Shown here: piece after piece, positions 1 through 10,160 of the stretch | Layout: each line of letters begins with the position of its first letter | How positions within the stretch are numbered: the stretch's first letter is position 1 | NCBI GenBank assembly: GCA_003245395.1 | Contig: QKDF01000047.1 | Span: 1 to 10,160, forward strand | Direction: 5' to 3' | From: Clostridia bacterium | GTDB lineage: Bacteria; Bacillota; Clostridia; Oscillospirales; Oscillospiraceae | DNA: 10,160 bases | Position numbers and translations under genes: made by a program | Notes under the pieces: model-generated | What the model saw: only the letters and a program-made list of their open reading frames with translations | Database searches by the model: none | What the model was told of the DNA's origin: nothing

Positions 1-39
1 GGAACAGGAGCGTGCCGCGCGTTGAAAACAAGGACGGCA
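1..39. other. Short flank downstream of znuB-like gene
   Basis: These 39 bases follow the permease stop codon on the minus strand. I see no hairpin with a T-run and no recognisable start of another gene, so nothing shows whether the operon ends here or continues leftwards, for example into a znuA-like gene. Confidence 0.4.
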
Positions 40-849
40 TTATCCACGGCGGAGCTTGCCAAGCACACACGCGGCCAGAAATACCAGCAGGTTTGCCGCC
101 ACCACTGTGGCGCCCACGGGCGTGGATCGGACGAAGGACACCGTCAGACCCGCGCAGAAGCAGAGTACGGAGGTTGTGGCCGCACAGATCACCACGCCCC
201 GGAAGCTGCGCAGCAGCCGCATGGCGGTCAGCGCAGGGAAGATCACCAGGGAGGAGATCAGCATCGCGCCCATCATGCGCATACCCAGCACGATGGTCAA
301 AGCGGTAAGAATTGCCAGCAGGGTGTTGTAAAGTCCCACCCGCAGCCCGGTGGCCCGGGCAAAGCTCTCGTCAAAAGTGACGGCGAACAGCTTGTGGTAA
401 AATACCACGAACAGCACCAGCACCGCAGCGCACAGCGCCACAGAGAGGATGACATCCGCCTTTGTCATGGCCAGCACGCTGCCGAACATGTAGTTGTCCA
501 CGTCGGTGGTCATGCCCGTGGTCAGCGAGATGACCAGAATACCGATTGCCAGAGACGAGGCACTGAGCACCGCGATGGCGGCGTCGCTGCCCCACCGCCC
601 GTCGGCAATGCGCAGCAGAAAGAATGCCGCCAGAATGACCACGGGAATCGAAAAGGTCAGGGGAGCGGCCCCCACAGCCACGGCGACCGCCAAAGCGCCG
701 AAGGAGACGTGGCTGAGTCCGTCACCGATCATGGAGTACCGCTTAAGCACCAGCGGCACGCCAAGCAGTGCCGCACACAGGGAAACCAGAATGCCCGCAA
801 TCAGCGCCCGCTGCATGAACGGGTAGGAGAACATCTGAAAAAGTTCCAT
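40..849 (-). CDS. znuB: Metal (zinc-type) ABC transporter permease, ZnuB/ABC-3 family
   Basis: A 269-residue polytopic membrane protein, the usual size for the ABC-3 (ZnuB/MntB/TroC) permease family. It would form the membrane channel that moves a divalent metal, most likely zinc, into the cell using the ATPase encoded just upstream. The sequence is almost entirely hydrophobic helices (about 8). It carries the family motif near residues 38-51 (YSMIGDGLSHVSFGA), where the cytoplasmic loop contacts the ATPase, and a typical C-terminal helix with GATVVAANLL. The ATG overlaps the ATPase stop by one base (TGATG), and a GGAGGA ribosome site lies in the end of the ATPase gene, which indicates translational coupling. 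Metal specificity (Zn versus Mn or Fe) cannot be read from the permease; zinc is inferred from similarity and from the linked Fur-family regulator. Confidence 0.88.
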   Translation of the reverse strand: MELFQMFSYPFMQRALIAGILVSLCAALLGVPLVLKRYSMIGDGLSHVSFGALAVAVAVGAAPLTFSIPVVILAAFFLLRIADGRWGSDAAIAVLSASSLAIGILVISLTTGMTTDVDNYMFGSVLAMTKADVILSVALCAAVLVLFVVFYHKLFAVTFDESFARATGLRVGLYNTLLAILTALTIVLGMRMMGAMLISSLVIFPALTAMRLLRSFRGVVICAATTSVLCFCAGLTVSFVRSTPVGATVVAANLLVFLAACVLGKLRRG

Positions 850-1565
850 CAGTCCTCCTCCTTTTTACAGAACCGGCAGCCGGCGGGGGAGTGAAGAAAC
901 TCCTGAACCGTACCGTAGAACCACCCGGTTTTCCCAATGTGAAGCACGGTTCCGGCCTGTTCCAGCGCAGCGCTCAGATCGTGCGTAACCATAATGACTG
1001 CCATGCCCTCCTGCTCGTTGAGATACCGCAGGGTTTTGTAAAGGTCCTGCGCCGCGGCGGGGTCCAGCCCGGTGATGGGCTCGTCCAAAATCAGCAGGCG
1101 GCTGGCGGCGCACAGCGCCCTGGCCAGCAGAACCCGCTGCTGCTGCCCGCCGGACAGATCGCGGTAGCACCGGTCCTTCAGCTCTAAAATGCCTAGCTTG
1201 CCAATGTTCATCATCGCCGCGGATTTCTGTGCTGCGGAGTAGAAAAAGCGGGTTCCTTTTTGATTCAAGCATCCCGAGAGCACCACTTCGTACACGGTGG
1301 CGGGAAAGCCCTTCTGGGCGCGGGTTTGCTGAGGCAGATACCCCAAGGCACCGCGGCTGAGCTCCGGAGCGCGCTCAATGGTGCCGGACAGTGGCGGCAA
1401 AAGCCCCAGAAGCCCCTTCATGAGGGTGGATTTGCCGGAGCCGTTGTCGCCCACTACGCACAGATAATCTCCGGTATGAACGGTCAGGCTCAGGTGCTCC
1501 AGTACCGACTGTCGCTCATAGCCCAGCGACACGTCCCGGACGGCGATCAGTTCATTCGCTTGCAT
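849..1565 (-). CDS. znuC: Metal (zinc-type) ABC transporter ATP-binding protein, ZnuC-like
   Basis: A 238-residue ABC ATPase that powers the adjacent permease at the inner face of the membrane. All nucleotide-binding motifs are present: Walker A GDNGSGKST (residues 39-47), Q-loop Gln79, signature LSGGQ (137-141), Walker B LLILDEP (157-163) and H-loop His195. The frame is open further upstream, but I chose the ATG at 1565. It has an AGAGGAG-like ribosome site just before it, the ABC homology begins there (MQANELIAVRDVSLGY), and the upstream extension only reads the regulator gene in another frame. The start lies inside the end of the regulator gene (14-base overlap), and the stop overlaps the permease ATG. 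The extreme C-terminus has a small His/Cys cluster (H225, C230, C233) that could bind metal; this is speculative. Confidence 0.9.
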   Translation of the reverse strand: MQANELIAVRDVSLGYERQSVLEHLSLTVHTGDYLCVVGDNGSGKSTLMKGLLGLLPPLSGTIERAPELSRGALGYLPQQTRAQKGFPATVYEVVLSGCLNQKGTRFFYSAAQKSAAMMNIGKLGILELKDRCYRDLSGGQQQRVLLARALCAASRLLILDEPITGLDPAAAQDLYKTLRYLNEQEGMAVIMVTHDLSAALEQAGTVLHIGKTGWFYGTVQEFLHSPAGCRFCKKEED

Positions 1566-1968
1566 GGCGCTCCTCTCTGGCACGGCAGTCGGCGCAAAGG
1601 CCGGTAAACAGCGTTCTGCGCCGGTCGACCGTAAAATGATGCTCCTGCTCCAGATGCTCGTAAAGAGGCTGAAGATAGGAACAATCCAGATGCACAATCC
1701 GTCCGCAGCCCTCGCATTTGAGCAGCAGACAGCCCGCGCCGTCCTCGGCGTGGGTGCAGTATTGGAAATAGGAACCCTGCTCCGTATTAATTTTATGGAT
1801 GCAGCCGGTTGATTCCAGCCGCTCCAGCTGACGGTAGATGGTAGCCAGTCCCACGGGACTGCCGTCCTGACGCAGCTCCGCCGCCAGATCGGCGGCAGAC
1901 AGCGGCTGTCCCTGCTTCCGTTCCAGACAGGCCAGAATCGCCTGCTGCTGTTTGGTTGTATAGGGCAT
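1552..1968 (-). CDS. zur: Fur-family metal-responsive repressor (probable Zur)
   Basis: A 138-residue Fur-superfamily regulator. It has an N-terminal winged helix with recognition helix near residues 40-51 (GLATIYRQLERL) and a C-terminal dimerisation domain. Two CxxC pairs (C85/C88 and C125/C128) form the structural zinc site, and His-rich stretches (H73, H93, H110, H111) could serve the sensory metal site. The ATG at 1968 is preferred because an AGAGGTG ribosome site sits six bases upstream. An in-frame ATG at 2007 would lie upstream of the expected transcript start. The gene leads an operon with znuC and znuB, and a Fur-type box covers its own promoter, so it probably represses itself and the transporter when metal is plentiful. 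Zur rather than Fur, Mur or PerR is inferred from the transporter context only. Confidence 0.85.
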   Translation of the reverse strand: MPYTTKQQQAILACLERKQGQPLSAADLAAELRQDGSPVGLATIYRQLERLESTGCIHKINTEQGSYFQYCTHAEDGAGCLLLKCEGCGRIVHLDCSYLQPLYEHLEQEHHFTVDRRRTLFTGLCADCRAREERHASE

Positions 1969-1991
1969 CGACAGCACCTCTTTTTGAGAAA

Positions 1992-2006
1992 TGAGAATCA
2001 TTTTCA
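1992..2006. promoter_or_regulatory. Fur/Zur-type 7-1-7 operator
   Basis: TGAGAATCATTTTCA is an inverted repeat of two seven-base arms around one base, with six of seven arm positions symmetrical. It resembles the Fur-superfamily box TGATAATnATTATCA. It begins two bases downstream of the -10 element of the zur promoter and covers the expected start site, a classic repression position. Fur-family boxes of different specificity look alike, so the cognate metal cannot be read from it. Confidence 0.75.
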
Positions 2007-2007
2007 C

Positions 2008-2035
2008 ATTATAAACCTGTGGGGAAAATTGTCAA
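2008..2035 (-). promoter_or_regulatory. Sigma-A promoter of the zur-znuCB operon
   Basis: On the minus strand a perfect TTGACA (2030-2035) is followed after 16 bases by a perfect TATAAT (2008-2013). Transcription should start near 2001, inside the Fur-type operator, about 30 bases before the zur ATG. A consensus promoter under a repressor fits an operon that is strongly on when metal is scarce. Confidence 0.8.
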
Positions 2036-2051
2036 GCCCTCCGTTTTAAGG

Positions 2052-2080
2052 TTGCAAAAAACGGTGGATGCGTGTATGGT
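2052..2080 (+). promoter_or_regulatory. Possible sigma-A promoter of the nucleotidyltransferase gene
   Basis: TTGCAA (2052-2057) and TATGGT (2075-2080) are separated by 17 bases and point towards the gene starting at 2149. The -10 match is only moderate. A leader of about 60 bases would follow, with no clear regulatory fold. Confidence 0.45.
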
Positions 2081-2148
2081 TAAGGTACGTAAAAATGCGC
2101 AAAAAAACCGGCCGGAAAAATCAGGCCGAGTAATACGGGAGTTTCGAT

Positions 2149-3066
2149 ATGAAAGTATCATTGGTTATCATGGCGGCAGGGCTGGGGTCCCGGTACGGCG
2201 GCAGCAAGCAGGTGGACGGGATCGGCCCTAATAACGAGATTTTGATGGAATACTCCATTTACGATGCCCTTCGCGCCGGGTTCAATAAAATCGTTTTTAT
2301 CATCAAGCCGGAGATGGAAGAGCTGTTGCACCGCATCTGCGGGAACTATCTGGCAAAAAAGACCGCCGCAGACGGAAGCCCGGTTGAGGTAGCCTATGTT
2401 TTCCAGGATTTTTCCTCCGTGCCGGAGTTTTATCATATCCCCGAGGGACGGACGAAGCCCTTTGGCACGGTTCATGCGCTGTTGTGTGCCGAGAGCGCGG
2501 TGCATGAACCCTTCTGCGTGATCAATGCCGACGATTACTACGGTATTGACGCCTACCGGACAATTTACAAAGAACTGGTGACGCTGCCGGAGACCGGCAG
2601 GGGCACCATGGTCGGCTATCTTCTGAAGAACACGGCCAGCCTGCACGGCACGGTCTCCCGGGGCGTGTGCACCGTGGCGGACGGCAAGCTGCTCTCTGTA
2701 CGGGAGGCGCTGAAGGTTCAGCTATATCCCGACGGATCATTGAAGGATCTGGCGGAGGATGTTTCCCTGGACCCGGACACGGTGGTGTCCATGAATTTCT
2801 GGGGCTTCATGCCCAGTATATTCCCGGAATTGCGGGCGTATTTTGAGCAGTTTCTGCGTACAGAGGCGGGCGAAAACCTCAAGGCTGAGTGCCTGCTGCC
2901 GGTGATGGTGGGCGGCCAGCTGAACAAGAATCAGATGGAAGTCTCCGTTCTTCATTCCGCCGATCGCTGGTTTGGAATGACCTACCGGGAGGATCGGGAG
3001 ATTGTGGCACAGGAACTGCGCAGACTCCACGCCGGCGGCGATTATCCCGCGACCCTCAAGGGCTGA
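2149..3066 (+). CDS. Sugar-phosphate nucleotidyltransferase-like protein
   Basis: A 305-residue protein of the NTP_transferase fold (GT-A-like Rossmann fold), expected to couple a nucleoside triphosphate to a sugar or polyol phosphate in the cytoplasm. The N-terminal signature MAAGLGSRYGGSKQ (residues 8-21) supplies the nucleotide-binding glycine loop and Lys20. INADDYYG (125-132) gives the metal-binding Asp pair, and VSMNFWGF (213-220) and DRWFGMTYREDRE (272-284) are later conserved blocks. The start is supported by GGGAG seven bases upstream. The gene stands alone between a divergent metal operon and a terminator, with no kinase, epimerase or glycosyltransferase next to it, so the substrate cannot be assigned. 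It resembles the orphan 'nucleotidyltransferase family' proteins common in Clostridia more than canonical RfbA or GalU. Confidence 0.8.
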   Translation: MKVSLVIMAAGLGSRYGGSKQVDGIGPNNEILMEYSIYDALRAGFNKIVFIIKPEMEELLHRICGNYLAKKTAADGSPVEVAYVFQDFSSVPEFYHIPEGRTKPFGTVHALLCAESAVHEPFCVINADDYYGIDAYRTIYKELVTLPETGRGTMVGYLLKNTASLHGTVSRGVCTVADGKLLSVREALKVQLYPDGSLKDLAEDVSLDPDTVVSMNFWGFMPSIFPELRAYFEQFLRTEAGENLKAECLLPVMVGGQLNKNQMEVSVLHSADRWFGMTYREDREIVAQELRRLHAGGDYPATLKG

Positions 3067-3137
3067 GAAATATTTATCTGCGCCGGTGGTCTTTGAAACG
3101 CTGACGAACAGACTACAGTCCGCAAAAATCATAAAAG

Positions 3138-3165
3138 AAAAGCACGGCCCATGGGCCGTGCTTTT
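3138..3165. terminator. Bidirectional intrinsic terminator
   Basis: A perfect palindrome with stem AGCACGGCCC / GGGCCGTGCT around a central AT is flanked by A-rich sequence on the left and a T-run on the right (to 3167). It can end transcription of the nucleotidyltransferase gene from the left and of the XRE regulator gene from the right, which converge here. The fully self-complementary core leaves only a tiny loop in RNA once the innermost pairs open. Confidence 0.85.
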
Positions 3166-3201
3166 TTAGTGGGTTCAAAAGACTTCGGAATGACCCTTGG
3201 T

Positions 3202-3786
3202 CTACAGCTTTTGTGCATATAGCCCGTGGCGGTTGCAAAAAGCATACAGCACGCCGCCGGAGACGGGCTTGAAGCGACCAGCTGCCGTCTGCTCCGGATA
3301 CAGCTTGAGCTGCTGGAGCCGGTCGCCGGAGACCAGGGCCAGAAAGGACAGATAGTGGCTTTTGGTCATGGGATGGGGGACGGTGACATACAATTCATCT
3401 TCCACCGGTTCCACGGTGAACAGATGCGCTTCGTCGGGCTCCTCGGCCTCCAGGGGCGGCAGTGTCACGCCGCAGCAGGAAAATGATCCCTCGCCGGCGG
3501 AAAAAATAACGTTTCCGCACACGGGACAGACGTAAAATTTGCCCCGCAGCAGATTGCCCGCCCGGTTGCGGTTTTCGGTGCAGTCGCCTGAGAGCAGCTC
3601 CGCCACTGAGACACCCAGCGCTTTAGCCAGTGGCTCCAGAAGCGTCACATCCGGCAGACCGCGGCCTGTTTCCCACTTGGAGACGGCTTTATCGCTGACG
3701 GCCAAGCGTTCAGCCAGCTGCTTTTGCGTATAGCCTCGCTTTTCACGGAGCGCCTTCACGGCGGCTCCCGTCACATAGTTATCCAT
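3202..3786 (-). CDS. XRE-family regulator fused to a desulfoferrodoxin/superoxide-reductase-like domain
   Basis: A 194-residue two-domain protein. Residues 7-65 are a Cro/C1-type helix-turn-helix (LREKRGYTQKQLAERL, then SDKAVSKWETGRGLPD). After a short linker, residues 84-190 match two-iron superoxide reductase (desulfoferrodoxin). Four cysteines for the rubredoxin-like Fe(Cys)4 centre are present (C87, C90, C104, C105). The Fe(His)4Cys centre is also complete: H121, H138 and H144 (HPMTKSHY), C184 and H187 (FCNRHGLY). The Glu-Lys-His loop of the enzyme reads Glu-Ala-His (119-121), so the lysine that helps catalysis is missing. The likely role is a redox- or superoxide-responsive transcription factor; no target is visible. 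The start is fixed by AAGGAG seven bases upstream. The gene is monocistronic and convergent with the nucleotidyltransferase gene. Confidence 0.85.
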   Translation of the reverse strand: MDNYVTGAAVKALREKRGYTQKQLAERLAVSDKAVSKWETGRGLPDVTLLEPLAKALGVSVAELLSGDCTENRNRAGNLLRGKFYVCPVCGNVIFSAGEGSFSCCGVTLPPLEAEEPDEAHLFTVEPVEDELYVTVPHPMTKSHYLSFLALVSGDRLQQLKLYPEQTAAGRFKPVSGGVLYAFCNRHGLYAQKL

Positions 3787-3807
3787 GGGATCACTCCTTC
3801 TCCTGTG

Positions 3808-3836
3808 AGCATAACGTATCTTTCGGGGGAGAGCAA
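3808..3836 (-). promoter_or_regulatory. Sigma-A promoter of the XRE-SOR regulator
   Basis: On the minus strand TTGCTC (3831-3836) and TATGCT (3808-3813) are 17 bases apart. The transcript would start near 3801, giving a very short leader before the AAGGAG at 3794-3799. I could not see a convincing inverted repeat for self-regulation. Confidence 0.5.
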
Positions 3837-3852
3837 CCTACGAGACGTAGAG

Positions 3853-3888
3853 CGGAAGCCCGACGGGACGAATCCTGCCGGGCTTCCG
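3853..3888 (-). terminator. Hairpin after ftsH, possible terminator without a clear U-tract
   Basis: Six bases past the ftsH stop, CGGAAGCCCG (3853-3862) pairs perfectly with CGGGCTTCCG (3879-3888), and extra pairs can form inside the loop. No T-run follows on either strand. A second small hairpin (CTACG / CGTAG, 3838-3850) comes next. It could be an atypical terminator or an mRNA 3'-end stabiliser. It also lies just upstream of the XRE promoter. Confidence 0.5.
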
Positions 3889-3893
3889 ATTGG

Positions 3894-6023
3894 TTATGCC
3901 TGCGTGTCGTTTTCGGAGGAAGGCTGGGTTTGCTCCGCATCCTGCGGCGCGGAAGACCCGCTGCTTTCGTCCGCTGCCTCGGAACCGGTATCCTCGGACG
4001 CAGGAAGTCCCTCCACAGGGGATTCAATTTTCTGGGAGATCATATGAACCTTTTTTGCGGGGGCTTCAATTTCTTCCGGACGGGTGGAAGCGTACTCGTC
4101 TTCCACCAGATTCGGATCGCGGCCCTCCAGAATGGCCACCATTTCGCCGCCGGTGATGGTCTCCTTCTCCAGCAGATAGGCAACCACCTTGTCCATGTCA
4201 TCCCGGTTTTCCTTCAGAATCTCCACGGCCTTTTTGTAGCACTCGTCCAGAATCTCCCGCACGGCCTTGTCCAAGGTGGCGGCGGTGTCCTGTGCGCAGT
4301 CCATGCCGTAGCCGCCTTCCAGGTACTGGTTGCGCCGGGAGGCCAGAGCCATCATGCCGAATTCATCGCTCATGCCGAACATGGCGACCATGTTCCGGGC
4401 GACGTTGGTGGCGTCCTGAATATCCTGAGAGGCGCCGTTGGTCATGGTGTTCATCACCACTTCCTCTGCGGCACGGCCACCCATGGACACGGTGATCTTG
4501 CCCAACAGCTCGTCCTTGGTGCGCAGCTCGGTCTTATCCTCATCAGGCATCAGCAAAGTATAACCCAGAGCGCCTTGCGTGTGGGGGACGATGGTGATTT
4601 TCTGTACCGGCTCGGTGTTTTTCTGTTTATAGGCCACCATCGCGTGGCCCACCTCATGATAGGCCACCAGCTTTTTCTCAAACTCTGTCAGCACGGAGCC
4701 TTTTTTCTCCGTACCGGCGATGACCAGCTCGAACGCGGCCAGCAGGTCGCTCTGGTTGACGGCTTTGCGGCCCAAACGGACGGCCCGCAGAGCTGCCTCG
4801 TTCACCAGGTTGGCCAGATCCGCGCCCACGGAGCCGGCGGTGGCCAGCGCCACCTTCTTCAGATTTACGTCCTCGGCCAGGCGGATGTTGCGGGTGTGAA
4901 CCTGCAGCGTTGCAAGCCGCCCTGCCAGGTTGGGCCGATCGATGATGATGCGCCGGTCGAAGCGGCCGGGGCGCAGCAGCGCCTGATCCAGCACCTCGGG
5001 TCGGTTGGTGGCGGCCAGGAGGATGACGCCCTTGGTGGGGTCGAAGCCGTCCATCTCCGCAAGCAGCTGGTTGAGGGTCTGTTCGCGCTCGTCGTTGCCG
5101 CCCATGCGGTTGTCTCGGGATTTACCGATGGTGTCGATCTCGTCGATAAACACGATGCAGGGAGCCACTTTGCTGGCCTCTTTAAACAGGTCGCGGACAC
5201 GGGAGGCGCCCACGCCCACGAACATCTCCACGAAGTCGGAACCGGAGATGGAGAAGAAGGGCACGTTGGCTTCGCCGGCGACAGCCTTGGCCAGCAGCGT
5301 CTTGCCGGTGCCCGGAGGGCCCACCAGCAACGCACCCTTTGGCAGCTTGGCGCCGATCTCGGTGTATTTCTGAGGATTATGGAGGAAGTCGATAATTTCC
5401 GTCAGGGACTCCTTGGCCTCGTCCTGACCGGCCACGTCCCGGAAGGTGACGCCGGTGGATTTTTCCATATAGACCTTGGCGTTGGCCTTGCCCACGGTAC
5501 CGATGCCGCCGATGCCGCCCATTCCGCCTTTTTTCGCCATGATCCGCGTTACCAGCGAGAACATCAGCATGATCAGAGCGAAGGGCAGGATATAGGAGAT
5601 TAAAAACGTCAGCAGAGGATTGAGCGGCGGCGTATAGGGCTTGTCAAAGTCCGGGACATATTCCTCCAGCAGCGCCATCAGGGAGGGGTCGTCCGCGGAA
5701 ATAGGATTGGTGTAAAACTGATGGTCTTTACTGCTGTATTGCTTGCCGTCCTGATCGGTGTAGGTATAGTCATCCTTGGCGGTGATCATCAGCAGCCCCG
5801 TGCTGGCATCCTTGGAGACCTTTGTGATCTCACCGGCCTTGGCAATCTGGACAAACTCGCTGTATGGAATTTCCACCGCTGACTTGTCCGCGGTGCCGGA
5901 AAGATAGGTGCCGGCCCAGCTGACCACAATGGTCAGCAGCAGCGCCCAGCTGATAAGGGTTGCAATGCCCCGCCAGTTGTCGTTGCGGTTGTTCCGGTTT
6001 TTTTTATTGTTATTTTGATTCAT
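3894..6023 (-). CDS. ftsH: ATP-dependent membrane zinc metalloprotease FtsH
   Basis: A 709-residue AAA+ protease anchored in the cytoplasmic membrane that degrades misassembled membrane proteins and selected regulators. Order of parts: an Asn/Lys-rich N-tail (1-17), TM1 (about 18-40), an extracytoplasmic domain (about 42-134), TM2 (about 136-160), a Gly-rich linker, the AAA module and the protease domain. AAA motifs are Walker A GPPGTGKT (235-242), Walker [10 protein letters not shown] (289-297) and a second region of homology with R351 and R354. The protease domain has HEVGH (456-460), glutamate 457 and the third zinc ligand D534 in [14 protein letters not shown] replaces the common HEAGH, which keeps HExxH intact. 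The C-terminal 60 or so residues are Ser/Glu-rich and probably disordered. An AAAGGAG ribosome site lies eight bases before the ATG. It appears monocistronic and divergent from rlmB. Confidence 0.97.
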
Positions 6024-6068
6024 CCAATGAACTCCTTTGCATGTTCCACCGCATCGCGGCGCGGCGAA

Positions 6069-6111
6069 AAGCCGGGAATATTACAGTGGAGTATACCATA
6101 AAACCCGGCTT
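6069..6111. repeat. Inverted repeat enclosing the ftsH -10 region
   Basis: AAGCCGGG (6069-6076) and CCCGGCTT (6104-6111) are perfect eight-base arms 27 bases apart. They flank the -10 hexamer of the ftsH promoter and the right arm touches the spacer. The layout could suit a regulator binding site, but it may be chance. The left-arm sequence recurs as AAGCCGGGAA at 6206-6215 in the rlmB leader. Confidence 0.35.
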
Positions 6112-6118
6112 GTCACAA
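6090..6118 (-). promoter_or_regulatory. Sigma-A promoter of ftsH (extended -10)
   Basis: On the minus strand TTGTGA (6113-6118) and TATACT (6090-6095) are 17 bases apart, and TGG directly precedes the hexamer, giving an extended -10. The leader to the ftsH ATG is about 60 bases. Confidence 0.7.
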
Positions 6119-6161
6119 GGATACACGTCGGTTTTTCTATGAAATTTCTGTGAATTTCGCT

Positions 6162-6189
6162 TTGATTGATCTTGCTTTCGTGGTATACT
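6162..6189 (+). promoter_or_regulatory. Sigma-A promoter of the rlmB operon (extended -10)
   Basis: TTGATT (6162-6167) and TATACT (6184-6189) are 16 bases apart, again with TGG before the hexamer. The nine-base core TGGTATACT is identical to that of the divergent ftsH promoter. Transcription should start near 6196, leaving about 43 bases before the rlmB ATG. Confidence 0.7.
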
Positions 6190-6238
6190 ACAGAAAAGTG
6201 TAGGAAAGCCGGGAAACCGGCCGAAAAAGGAGAAGACT

Positions 6239-7006
6239 ATGGACAGCGAAAAGAAGGATAGCCTGACCGCAGAGGCGGACGGACTGATCGAGGGGCGCAA
6301 TGCCGTTATCGAGGCTCTGCGCGCCGGCGAAACAATTGACAAGATTTATATCGCGAAAGGCGAGACAGATAAAACCCTGGGGCATATTGCCTCCCGTGCC
6401 CGCGCCGCCGGCGTGGTGGTGGTGGAGGCGGATCGGCGCAAGCTGGACGGCATGAGCCGCACCCATGCCCATCAGGGCGTCATCGCGCTAGCTGCGGTTC
6501 GGGAGTATGCCACGGTGGAGAGTATTCTGCAGACCGCGGCGGATCGGCAGGAAGCCCCATTGCTGGTGGTGTGCGACGAGATTTCCGATCCGCATAATCT
6601 GGGCGCCATCATCCGTACAGCTGAGTGCGCCGGAGCGCACGGCGTGATTATTCCCAAGCGGCGCAGCGCGGGCCTGACCGCCATTGTGGCCAAGACCTCC
6701 GCCGGAGCGGTGGCCCATCTGCCGGTGGCCAGAGTACCGAATATTCCGGCTCTGCTCAAGGATTTGAAAAAGCAGGGCGTGTGGGTATTCGGCACGGCGG
6801 CCGACGGAACCACGCCGCTTTACAGCGCCGATCTGAAAGGCCCTGCGGCCATCGTCATCGGCAGCGAGGGAGAGGGAATGACGCGTCTGGCTGCGGAAAA
6901 CTGCGACTTCTTGGTGAGTATTCCCCTGAAAGGCAAGCTGAATTCGCTCAACGCCTCCGCGGCGGCAGCGGTTTTACTGTATGAGGCTGTGCGCCAGCGC
7001 GGCTGA
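6239..7006 (+). CDS. rlmB: 23S rRNA (guanosine-2'-O-)-methyltransferase RlmB, TrmH/SpoU family
   Basis: A 255-residue SPOUT methyltransferase that would transfer a methyl group from S-adenosylmethionine to a ribose 2'-OH of 23S rRNA (G2251 in E. coli numbering) in the cytoplasm. An N-terminal RNA-substrate-binding domain (IEGRNAVIEALRAG, residues 17-30) is followed by the knotted catalytic domain. Motif 1 is DPHNLGAIIRTAECAG (117-132) with N120 and R126, motif 2 is IVIGSEGEGM (205-214), and motif 3 is IPLKGKLNSLNAS (228-240). Length is normal for RlmB. The start is supported by AAGGAG six bases upstream. It heads a likely two-gene operon, with only 14 bases before the next gene. Other SpoU-type targets (tRNA) cannot be wholly excluded, but the N-terminal domain favours RlmB. 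Confidence 0.9.
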   Translation: MDSEKKDSLTAEADGLIEGRNAVIEALRAGETIDKIYIAKGETDKTLGHIASRARAAGVVVVEADRRKLDGMSRTHAHQGVIALAAVREYATVESILQTAADRQEAPLLVVCDEISDPHNLGAIIRTAECAGAHGVIIPKRRSAGLTAIVAKTSAGAVAHLPVARVPNIPALLKDLKKQGVWVFGTAADGTTPLYSADLKGPAAIVIGSEGEGMTRLAAENCDFLVSIPLKGKLNSLNASAAAAVLLYEAVRQRG

Positions 7007-7020
7007 GGAAGCGAGGGAAC

Positions 7021-9156
7021 ATGGCGAAGGAGTTTGACCCGCTGGAGGATCTGACCGCCGATCCGGAGGATGAGGCATTTTCTCTGGAGGAGATCCTGGC
7101 GGAATATGGAATCAGCCGGGAGCAGAGGCTGCTGGCGGAACTGAATCAGGCGGAGACTCCGCTGCCTGCATCCGTCCCCGATGGGCCGGTGCAGCCGGAA
7201 ACGGTGCCCCAGCGGGAGCTGCCGAGTGATCCCGAAACATGCGAAAGCGAGACGCCGCCCCCGCTTTCAAGCGAGGAAACTGCCGCTCCCGAGGCTGAAG
7301 AAAGTGTTTCCGAGCCGGAGGAAGTGCTCCCGCAAGAGGAATTGCCCGCCCCGCCCCGCCCGGTCTCTGTGGAGCAAGCTGTGGGGATGACGGTGGACGG
7401 CGTGATGAAAGAGCAGGAGGCACAGCCGGAGAAAAAACCACGCCGCGGCCTGTTTTCCCGCAAAAAATTCGAAGAGACCGAACAGCTTTATCAGCCTCCT
7501 GCGCCCGAGCCGGAGCCGGTGGAGGAACCCATCGGAGAGGAAGAACCGCTGGAAGAGGCGGCTGCCGCGGCCCGTGCCGCCTGGCGCCGTCAGAAAAAGC
7601 CGCTGCCAATCGCGGCGGCGCTGCTGGTTCTGCTGGCGATCCCTCCTGCGGCGGAATACGCGGGATATGCCGTCCCTATCTGGACGGGAAGCCCGATGGT
7701 GCAGACGGGCGTATCGATCATTTTTTTGATTTTAGAGTGCATCCTGTGCCGGAGCGTATTTACCCGGGGGGTGCGGCTGCTGCGGCACAGGCAGTTTTCC
7801 GCGGGTTTTCTGGCGTCCGCCGCGGCATTGGTGGCCGGAGCGGACGGAGTGGTTCGCCTGCTGAGCACGACGCGCAGCGATACGGCGACCTATGCGCTCA
7901 CCGCCTGCGCAGCGCTGGTGTTCGCCCTGTGGGGAGACGCCAGCACCCAGCAGGGACGATATGACCTCTATCGCGCGGCCTCCATGGATAATTCCCCGCC
8001 GTATCTGGTTACGGATCTGGAGCGGGGCGCATGCAAGCAGACGGGCAAAATCCTCGGATTTTATACCGCGGCGGAGCGGGATTCCGCGGCGGTTCAGTGG
8101 CAGACAGCCCTGCTGCCGGTGTTTTTTGTAGCGTCCATGATATTTGCGGGCCTGGGCTCTCTGGGCCGGGATCGGGGGACGGATTTCATGCTCAACTGGT
8201 CTGCCATTCTCTGCGCCGCGTCTTCGCTGGCTCTGCCGCTGGCAGAAGCACTTCCATCCTCGCGGCTGGCGCTGCGGCTGCACAAAGCCGGCTGTGCCTT
8301 GGCGGGGTACGCCGGAGCGGAGCGCATCGGATGCAAGCGGTGCATGATCGTCACGGACGCGGACTTATTTCCGCCCGGCACCATTACATTCAACGGCATT
8401 AAGACCTTCGGGGAAGAAATGGGCAGAGCCGTATCCTATGCGGCCACACTGGCCCGGGCCTCGGACTGCGGGCTGCGGCGGCTGTTTGACAACCTGCTGG
8501 TGAGCGAAGGTGTTCATGCGGAGCCGGTGACGGACTTCAGTTTCTATGAAGAGGGCGGATTTTCCGGCAACATCCGGGGTGAAACGGTGATTTTGGGAAC
8601 GGCCTCCTTCATGCGCAAGATGGAGGTACAGATGCCGTCCGGCCTGAACCTTCGCACGGGAATTTTTCTGGCGGTGGACAGACAGCTGACAGCGGTGTTC
8701 GCGGTGAAATACAAGCCCTCCGAAAATGTGGAGTGGGCGCTGCGGATCATGCGCCGCAGCCATATCACACCGGTTCTGGCCTCTCGGGACCCCAATGTCA
8801 CGCCCGCGCTGATCAAGCGGAAATTCGGCGTGAAGATTAAAATGGAATACCCGGATCTCTCCAACCGTTTGGCTTTGTCCGAACAGGAGGGCTGGAAGGG
8901 GCTGCCTCGGGCGCTGCTGTTCCGGGAGGGTTTGCTGCCCTACGCCGAGACGGTAGCCGGAGCCCGTCGGCTGTGCCGGGCTGTCCGCCGGGGGACCGCC
9001 ATTGCGCTGTTGGGCAGTACGGCGGGGATATTGTTGACGTTTTATCTGACGTTTCTGGGGAGTTACAGCCTGATGCCGCCGCTGCTGCTGATGGTATTTT
9101 TGCTGCTGTGGACGCTGCCGATCTTTTTGCTCAACGACTGGGCGGGCCGGTATTAA
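7021..9156 (+). CDS. P-type ATPase-like membrane protein lacking catalytic motifs (probable pseudo-ATPase)
   Basis: A 711-residue protein I do not recognise by name. Residues 1-185 are acidic, Pro/Glu-rich and probably disordered, starting with a short conserved-looking helix (SLEEILAEYG, 21-30). Eight membrane segments follow at about 196-212, 225-248, 260-281, 289-305, 361-382, 390-412, 656-680 and 683-704. This 4+2+2 layout is that of heavy-metal (P1B) P-type ATPases. Residues 438-607 align by eye with their P and N domains: MIVTDADLFPPGTITFNG (442-459) sits where DKTGTLT belongs, GTASFM (526-531) where GNxxFM belongs, and TPVLASRDPN (583-592) where the TGDN loop belongs. The actuator region between TM4 and TM5 is only about 55 residues and lacks TGE. 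CPC is ALP (404-406), and GDGxND is not found. ATP-driven transport therefore looks unlikely. It follows rlmB by 14 bases (weak GAGGG site) and ends before a terminator. Confidence 0.65.
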   Translation: MAKEFDPLEDLTADPEDEAFSLEEILAEYGISREQRLLAELNQAETPLPASVPDGPVQPETVPQRELPSDPETCESETPPPLSSEETAAPEAEESVSEPEEVLPQEELPAPPRPVSVEQAVGMTVDGVMKEQEAQPEKKPRRGLFSRKKFEETEQLYQPPAPEPEPVEEPIGEEEPLEEAAAAARAAWRRQKKPLPIAAALLVLLAIPPAAEYAGYAVPIWTGSPMVQTGVSIIFLILECILCRSVFTRGVRLLRHRQFSAGFLASAAALVAGADGVVRLLSTTRSDTATYALTACAALVFALWGDASTQQGRYDLYRAASMDNSPPYLVTDLERGACKQTGKILGFYTAAERDSAAVQWQTALLPVFFVASMIFAGLGSLGRDRGTDFMLNWSAILCAASSLALPLAEALPSSRLALRLHKAGCALAGYAGAERIGCKRCMIVTDADLFPPGTITFNGIKTFGEEMGRAVSYAATLARASDCGLRRLFDNLLVSEGVHAEPVTDFSFYEEGGFSGNIRGETVILGTASFMRKMEVQMPSGLNLRTGIFLAVDRQLTAVFAVKYKPSENVEWALRIMRRSHITPVLASRDPNVTPALIKRKFGVKIKMEYPDLSNRLALSEQEGWKGLPRALLFREGLLPYAETVAGARRLCRAVRRGTAIALLGSTAGILLTFYLTFLGSYSLMPPLLLMVFLLLWTLPIFLLNDWAGRY

Positions 9157-9190
9157 ACAATCAACCGGACGTATACCATATTTTCAAAGC

Positions 9191-9227
9191 AGGAGCCACG
9201 GTGCAAAACCGTGGCTCTTAGCTTTTT
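9191..9227 (+). terminator. Intrinsic terminator of the rlmB operon
   Basis: GAGCCACGGT (9193-9202) pairs perfectly with ACCGTGGCTC (9208-9217) around a five-base loop. The stem can extend by two more pairs and is followed by TTAGCTTTTT. It separates the rlmB operon from the germination gene. Confidence 0.88.
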
Positions 9228-9280
9228 CACTGCATAAGAACGGAACTCGCTGATACCGGCTGGTTAAATGGGAGTTTCTG

Positions 9281-9309
9281 GTATAAATCCACGCGGCGGG
9301 CCCATACTA
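9281..9309 (+). promoter_or_regulatory. Probable forespore (sigma-G-type) promoter of the germination gene
   Basis: GTATA (9281-9285) and CATACTA (9303-9309) are 17 bases apart. This resembles the sigma-G consensus as known in Bacillus (GYATA or GMATA near -35, CATnnTA near -10). The start site would be near 9316, giving a short leader that begins close to the TTGGAGG ribosome site at 9317-9323. GerA-type receptors and SpoVAF are made in the forespore, so gene type and promoter agree. The match was judged by eye. Confidence 0.55.
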
Positions 9310-9328
9310 CCGGAGATTGGAGGTATGT

Positions 9329-10160
9329 ATGGAACAACTGACGGACGATTTTATGCAGAATGTCGGGGGGATGGACACTCTGCTGGGTGTCGGCAAAAAC
9401 TATGACATCATCAGCCGGTATCTGATCATCGGCGGACGAAAGTCGAAATTCTGGGTGGTGGATGGTTACGGCACCGATGCGGTGCTGGAGCATATCAACA
9501 CCACGCTGCTGAAGGTAGACTCCGCCGTCATGTCGGAACTGAATACTATGGAGCAGTTTGCCGAACAGTTTGTCACCTTCTGCGAAACCGATGTAGACCG
9601 GAACTGCGAGGAGATCACCACCTCTGTCCTGATGGGCAAGACCCTGCTGCTGGTGGAGGGGCTGGACGGAGGCGTTTTGATGGACGCCAAGGGCTATCCC
9701 ACCAGAGGCGTGAAGGAGCCGGAGAGCTCCAAGGTCCTGCGGGGCGCGCACGACGGTTTTGTGGAAACGCTGATGTTCAACACCGCTTTGCTCCGCAGGC
9801 GGATACGGGACCCCAAGCTAATTATGGAAAGCCACCGGGTGGGAACACGGTCAAAGACCGACGTTGTGGTATGCTATCTGGAGGACAAGGCGGACCAGCA
9901 GATGCTGGACGATCTGAGGGAAAAGCTGGCGAAGATCGATGAAAACTCCCTGTCCATGAGCCAGGAGAGCGTGGCGGAAGCCATGATGCGGCGAAAATGG
10001 TACAACCCATTTCCAAAGGTGCGCTATACGGAGCGGCCCGACGTGGCCACCGCCTGCGTCATGGAGGGGAACATTTTGCTGCTGGTGGAGGGGCTGGACG
10101 GAGGCGTTTTGATGGACGCCAAGGGCTATCCCACCAGAGGCGTGAAGGAGCCGGAGAGCT
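9329..10160 (+). CDS. Spore germination protein, GerA/SpoVAF family (partial, runs off right edge)
   Basis: The first 277 residues of a GerA-superfamily protein with no stop before the window end. Family members of about 450-550 residues help spores sense nutrients in the inner spore membrane: a soluble N-terminal domain of about 250 residues precedes several membrane helices. The opening LLGVGKNYDIISRYLIIGGR (18-37) is SpoVAF-like. GerA hallmarks follow: RGVKEPES (126-133), RGAHDGF (138-144), NTALLRRRIRDP (151-162) and NPFPKVRYTERPD (226-238). TTGGAGG five bases before the ATG fixes the start; an ATG four bases earlier is out of frame. After residue 249, where the hydrophobic strand before the membrane domain is expected, the sequence repeats residues 106-133 exactly at DNA level. 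The 3' part of this reading is therefore suspect (see repeat entries). SpoVAF versus a GerA A-subunit cannot be settled from the N-terminus. Confidence 0.85.
   Translation, partial: MEQLTDDFMQNVGGMDTLLGVGKNYDIISRYLIIGGRKSKFWVVDGYGTDAVLEHINTTLLKVDSAVMSELNTMEQFAEQFVTFCETDVDRNCEEITTSVLMGKTLLLVEGLDGGVLMDAKGYPTRGVKEPESSKVLRGAHDGFVETLMFNTALLRRRIRDPKLIMESHRVGTRSKTDVVVCYLEDKADQQMLDDLREKLAKIDENSLSMSQESVAEAMMRRKWYNPFPKVRYTERPDVATACVMEGNILLLVEGLDGGVLMDAKGYPTRGVKEPES
9645..9728 (+). repeat. 84-bp direct repeat, copy 1
   Basis: This copy encodes residues 106-133 of the germination protein and fits the family at this position (LLLVEGLDGG, then YPTRGVKEPES). It is identical base for base to 10077-10160, 432 bases downstream (144 codons, in frame). 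The base before it differs (C here, T in copy 2). Confidence 0.97.
10077..10160 (+). repeat. 84-bp direct repeat, copy 2, ending at the window edge
   Basis: This copy is identical to 9645-9728 and is cut off by the end of the window, so its true length is unknown. It begins inside a Leu-Leu-Leu-Val-Glu-Gly coding stretch, where the family normally moves on towards its first membrane helix rather than back to the RGVKEPES motif. Tandem duplication or misjoining are both possible. Confidence 0.97.

Follow-up and report, generated by a model that had tools for sequence, protein, structure and literature searches.

A pseudo-P1B-ATPase encoded next to rlmB and retained across one order of Clostridia

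The locus and the fold of the encoded protein

The 10,160-nucleotide stretch of Clostridia bacterium DNA considered here (GenBank assembly GCA_003245395.1, contig QKDF01000047.1, positions 1 to 10,160; hereafter the window) contains, 14 bases downstream of the rRNA methyltransferase gene rlmB and on the same strand, a frame of 711 codons whose product belongs to a family annotated, where sources name it, as hypothetical protein. The product retains the architecture of a heavy-metal (P1B) P-type ATPase and lacks the motifs of the pumping cycle. The features of the locus are as follows.

6239..7006, + strand: rlmB, 23S rRNA 2'-O-methyltransferase, operon partner (TIGR00186, E 4.3e-72)
7021..9156, + strand: pseudo-P1B-ATPase gene, 711 codons, 711 amino acids (open frame, sequence and fold comparison)
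7021..7575, + strand: residues 1-185, acidic, proline-rich, mostly disordered N-terminal tail (composition and predicted local distance difference test, pLDDT, of the model)
7078..7110, + strand: residues 20-30, conserved tail motif FSLEEILAEYG (pattern in family proteins)
7576..7986, + strand: residues 186-322, membrane helices MA, MB, M1 and M2 (model helices between 194 and 320)
7987..8085, + strand: actuator-domain remnant, two short strands without the TGE loop (model, aligned columns)
8086..8292, + strand: membrane helices M3 and M4; CPC column at S401-S402-L403, 8221-8229 (model, alignment)
8293..8385, + strand: first half of the pseudo-phosphorylation (pseudo-P) domain; phosphorylation loop now T445-D-A-D-L-F-P-P-G, catalytic Asp column at T445, 8353-8355 (alignment)
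8386..8715, + strand: nucleotide-binding (N) domain; HP lost, G513 (second Gly of GxG) and G526 (Gly of VGN) kept (alignment, structure matches)
8716..8928, + strand: second half of the pseudo-P domain, with a conserved D590-P-N592 loop; GDGxND stretch deleted (alignment)
8929..9153, + strand: membrane helices M5 and M6; M5 YN pair at G665-S666 (model, alignment)

A sequence-only reading of the window had proposed that this protein descends from heavy-metal P-type ATPases, and both sequence and predicted fold bear this out. Pfam recognizes no domain in the window protein, the HMA domain included, nor in any of 21 diverse family members, and the window protein, searched on its own against the sequences of the PDB, returned no match. 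The NCBIfam models for heavy-metal P-type ATPases do match, below threshold: the window protein at E 7.5e-5, and the diverse members in 12 of 21 cases for the CopA model and 12 of 21 for the heavy-metal model (best 4.4e-13). The features that define the P-type ATPase fold superfamily, a P1B-like order of membrane helices and a split P domain with an inserted N domain, are present, and the comparison of a predicted structure with P-type ATPase structures, which the same reading had suggested, gave a fold like that of CopA and ZntA (3rfu/4bbj, 4umw, 7qbz), with five N-domain structures superposing on the model at root-mean-square deviations of 1.9-2.8 Å. The membrane helices are retained in both predicted models. 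Ahead of them, the 185-residue tail comprises 48 Asp or Glu, 14 Lys or Arg and 29 Pro residues, and in the window model the mean pLDDT is below 60 in 16 of the first 18 ten-residue blocks.

Absence of catalytic and metal-site motifs

The motif analysis was based on 258 family proteins (158 from searches for relatives, 80 from named loci and 20 further rows of a first alignment), a set that includes duplicates and reduces to 85 representatives at 80% identity, and on an alignment in which 30 members were placed together with ten true pumps, one of which (P0166) is itself gapped at DKTGT. The defining P-type motifs were taken from those sections of PMC3573892 that describe them. DKTGT and SEHP occur in none of the 258 proteins, and neither does GDGxND, the corresponding stretch being deleted in all 30 aligned members. 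TGE is found in the TGE columns of 0/30 members; the letters TGE[SPA] occur somewhere in the sequence in nine of the 258 proteins. Between 75 columns before and 40 columns after TGE, the family has a median of 38 residues (range 38-66) against 115-116 in the pumps. At the M4 metal site CPC is likewise absent from all 30 members, of which ten retain the middle Pro and two a single Cys, and neither Tyr nor Asn is found in the M5 YN columns of any of them.

The sequence-only reading was correct about the loss of DKTGT, TGE, CPC and GDGxND, while its placement of two of these sites requires small corrections. The distance from the CPC column to the Asp column of DKTGT is 44 residues in every aligned member and 29-44 residues in the pumps, where the value of 29 fits the gap in P0166, and this spacing puts the nucleophile position of the window protein at T445. 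D446, which had been taken for the phosphorylated Asp, is thus one residue off and is ruled out on spacing, and the CPC site, earlier assigned to an Ala-Leu-Pro sequence, is three residues away at S401-S402-L403. The Asp column mostly contains Thr, Ser or Arg, with Asp in four of 254 proteins (those longer than 500 residues, four shorter pieces having been dropped; this set was used for all column counts) and in two of the 30 aligned members. The family has lost its motifs for phosphorylation, for dephosphorylation (actuator/TGE) and for magnesium binding (GDGxND), together with the metal site in the membrane, so that, judged from sequence and predicted fold, a P-type pumping cycle should with near certainty be impossible for the family protein.

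Compared with the P1B-1 copper ATPases (CopA of Legionella pneumophila, 3rfu/4bbj, and ATP7B), with which it shares the helix layout, the split P domain with its N insert, two N-domain glycines and the M5/M6 hairpin, the family lacks the HMA domain (by Pfam), CPC, YN, TGE, DKTGT, HP and GDGxND; its actuator is cut to about 38 residues, and the window protein has a long disordered tail. The losses relative to the ZntA-type P1B-2 ATPases (4umw, 7qbz), which have the same fold and whose NCBIfam models weakly match 5/21 and 7/21 members, are identical. The functionally uncharacterised P-type ATPase (FUPA) families are, in the relevant part of PMC3573892, likewise P-type relatives without known substrate; however, CtpH, there assigned to FUPA 24, keeps the DKTGTL(T/S) that the present family has lost.

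Retention, selection and genomic context

The gene is near-universal, essentially single-copy and order-restricted in the genomes sampled. In 147 genomes from 88 genera of one order, which we take to be Oscillospirales in GTDB, match scores are bimodal: 142 genomes score 186 bits or more, and the remaining five (G049, G079, G102, G114 and G137) have weak matches only, below 77 bits, like those of true P-type ATPases. Because G079 and G137 are congeneric, some of these absences may be genuine losses. A second high-scoring match was seen only in G096, on another contig, and appears to be a single gene interrupted by contig ends. In a class-wide sample of 196 genomes, 188 gave some match at E 0.001, whereas at least 198 bits was reached only by the nine genomes of the order; none of the 187 from other orders exceeded 98 bits, a score that true P-type ATPases give. 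Among the genomes of 40 relatives, 38 match, and the two that do not are 65% and 55% complete. Named records among the best 80 of 179 come from Oscillibacter, Dysosmobacter and other Oscillospiraceae.

Purifying selection on the homologues, a check named in advance, was found. The ratio of nonsynonymous to synonymous rates (dN/dS; Nei-Gojobori method, NG86) is 0.081 to 0.470, with a median of 0.20, over 31 disjoint pairs taken from the named loci; these were drawn from the 400 most similar pairs below 98.5% identity and have synonymous rates (dS) of 0.05-1.8. The dN of the P domain is below that of the whole gene in 30/31 pairs, and that of residues 186-322 is often above those of the P and N domains. 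Between the best match and the stop, the frame is unbroken in all 80 named loci. Catalytic residues have been lost family-wide under purifying selection, as expected of a pseudoenzyme. Decay into a pseudogene, to which the lost motifs and a few members with an in-frame stop or split frame might point, is ruled out by the order-wide conservation, the low dN/dS and the intact frames, and its probability is negligible; the claim of the sequence-only reading that this is a real, retained gene is upheld by the same results and by its linkage to rlmB.

These substitution patterns also bear on whether the membrane part might serve as a passive channel or secondary carrier gated by the head. The helices are retained in both models, W697 is conserved in 252/254 proteins and the middle Pro of CPC survives in a third of the aligned members; however, the metal-site columns have lost CPC, nearly every Cys and the YN pair, and the first four helices often evolve faster than the head. 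We consider a transport function of this kind improbable.

Upstream of the gene, rlmB lies on the same strand in 94/99 loci, or in 89 of 93 distinct loci once six that represent the same place fetched twice are removed. Of the distinct loci without it, L013/L127, L107 and L125 are truncated by a contig edge, whereas L017 is a true exception; at L025, outside these counts because the gene was missed by tblastn, rlmB adjoins as well. The gap between the rlmB stop and the first start codon has a median of 24 nt, and the larger distances at three loci (L027, L030 and L102, the last two being one place) may reflect frame breaks or start choice. The linkage may mean shared transcription only. An ftsH homologue (3894-6023, - strand) lies divergently upstream of rlmB (6239-7006, + strand), at a distance similar to that in many named loci.

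True heavy-metal P-type ATPases are present in 20/20 genomes searched, and pseudo-enzymes often regulate active relatives, so that the family protein might act, by pairing or competition, on a bona fide P-type ATPase in its own cell. Nevertheless, P-type ATPase matches extend through the class, yet the family is confined to one order, and in the loci examined it is linked to rlmB and not to metal genes. We give this proposal little credence.

Downstream of the gene the neighbours vary, being a GerA-type germination gene in the window and elsewhere, for example, genes for EF-G, a KH-domain GTPase, YebC, GMP synthase or a PepSY/YPEB protein, and no conserved partner was seen among the annotated downstream genes. 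The germination gene is incidental, because the gerA query from the window is unmatched in 99 other loci, 92 of which have at least 800 bases of downstream sequence. A role as a spore germination or sporulation component, suggested by this neighbour and by the PepSY/YPEB-domain gene next in L029, is opposed by these results and by the distribution of spoIVA (TIGR02836), which was matched in 137/147 genomes of the order: the family gene is present in 133/137 genomes with a spoIVA match and in 9/10 without, a weak test in that nearly all sampled genomes have spoIVA. Since nine of the ten keep it, the gene is not tied to sporulation in this sample, as far as so weak a test can tell. Four of the ten are from one genus and may for that reason be true spoIVA losses. 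A spore germination operon is ruled out on both counts, and a sporulation role of any kind is highly unlikely.

Within the gerA-type gene an exact direct repeat of 84 bp (9645-9728 and 10077-10160) was observed, the second copy of which reaches the contig end in place of the expected GerA sequence, so that an assembly artefact probably accounts for the final bases of the window. On the minus strand, a helix-turn-helix regulator (3202-3786, -) matches desulfoferrodoxin in its C-terminal part (E 8e-5), an unusual domain pairing, and three genes at 40-2007 (-) have translations that resemble the permease and the ATPase of a zinc-type ABC transporter and a regulator of the Fur family.

The conserved head and its possible role

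What the family has lost in pump motifs is accompanied by a signature of its own in the head (the pseudo-P and N domains), DxD[LI]FPPG together with D-x-N. In the altered phosphorylation loop, whose conservation among homologues had been posed as a question, D446 is kept in 246 of the 254 proteins, D448 in 247, F450 in 242, P451 in 252 and G453 in 246; elsewhere the counts are 252 for G513, 253 for G526, 250 for Y564, 252 for D590 (with two gaps) and 246 for N592. The second Gly of GxG (G513) is kept in 29/30 aligned members and the Gly of VGN (G526) in 30/30, while the first Gly of GxG, E511 in the window protein, is kept in three and lost in 27; the HP pair is lost as well. In ATP7B, the GxG and VGN residues G1099, G1101, G1149 and N1150 are reported, in the portion of PMC3203118 that treats them, to lie near ATP. 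A residual nucleotide site in the head is possible, since G513 and G526 correspond to these motifs.

The conserved DxD at 446-448 also raises the question of whether the head is a different HAD-type enzyme, a phosphatase or phosphotransferase in which these residues would be the nucleophile and the acid/base, given that HAD phosphatases use DxD. The spacing, however, puts the nucleophile column at T445, the stretch in which the pumps carry their last acidic motif is missing, and D446 is absent in some members (L021 and L022); such an activity has, in our judgement, very little probability.

Because the pump parts are lost yet the gene is strongly preserved, a non-pumping membrane job is probable, and we favour, at a probability of about 0.6, an order-specific pseudo-P1B-ATPase that acts as a membrane-anchored regulatory scaffold or sensor, most likely with the head as its working part, a reading with which the sensor, scaffold or regulator use suggested by the sequence-only reading would be compatible. 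The head, which is the most constrained part of the protein, would bind a ligand or protein through a rebuilt pocket made up of the DxD[LI]FPPG and D-x-N loops, with the two N-domain glycines kept; binding would move the head with respect to the membrane helices and thereby act on a partner, which the short conserved motifs of the acidic tail might dock in long members. A FSLEEILAEYG-type motif lies within the first 260 residues of 207/258 family proteins, and a tail-motif search of the loci gave 70 matches; among the matches listed there are ten distinct strings, all in family genes. A more specific version, in which the head of a metal pump has become a nucleotide or ligand sensor, the glycines holding the nucleotide, the DxDLFPPG/D-x-N pocket reading it and the membrane helices signalling to a partner in the envelope or in ribosome biogenesis, with the whole encoded alongside rlmB as a lineage-defining core protein, is tentative and rather unlikely.

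Several observations weigh against the scaffold or sensor reading. The conservation of the head residues could reflect structural needs alone. The five genomes without a high-scoring match imply that the gene is either dispensable somewhere or missing from those assemblies; five others (G003, G007, G046, G076 and G088) have one in-frame stop in the matched stretch, and in G035/L027 the gene is split into two frames (L027 4221-6448, query matches 343-535 and 531-705). The dN/dS values derive from a simple estimator, and some of the pairs are close to saturation. Furthermore, the tail motif pattern is not matched in 51/258 proteins and L024, the shortest member read, has no tail, beginning about 20 residues before the first hydrophobic stretch, so that docking through the tail is not general and the constant part of the protein is the membrane domain with the pseudo-P/N head.

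Pseudo-kinases and pseudo-proteases are well studied. Among the papers listed in searches of the open-licence literature, no described pseudo-P-type ATPase family under selection was found, itself a weak absence; judged from sequence, the present family would be a pseudoenzyme built from a P-type ATPase. The family offers a candidate marker gene for the order, a natural experiment in what stays useful in a pump unable to pump and a well-defined object of study in a widespread but little understood group of gut bacteria.
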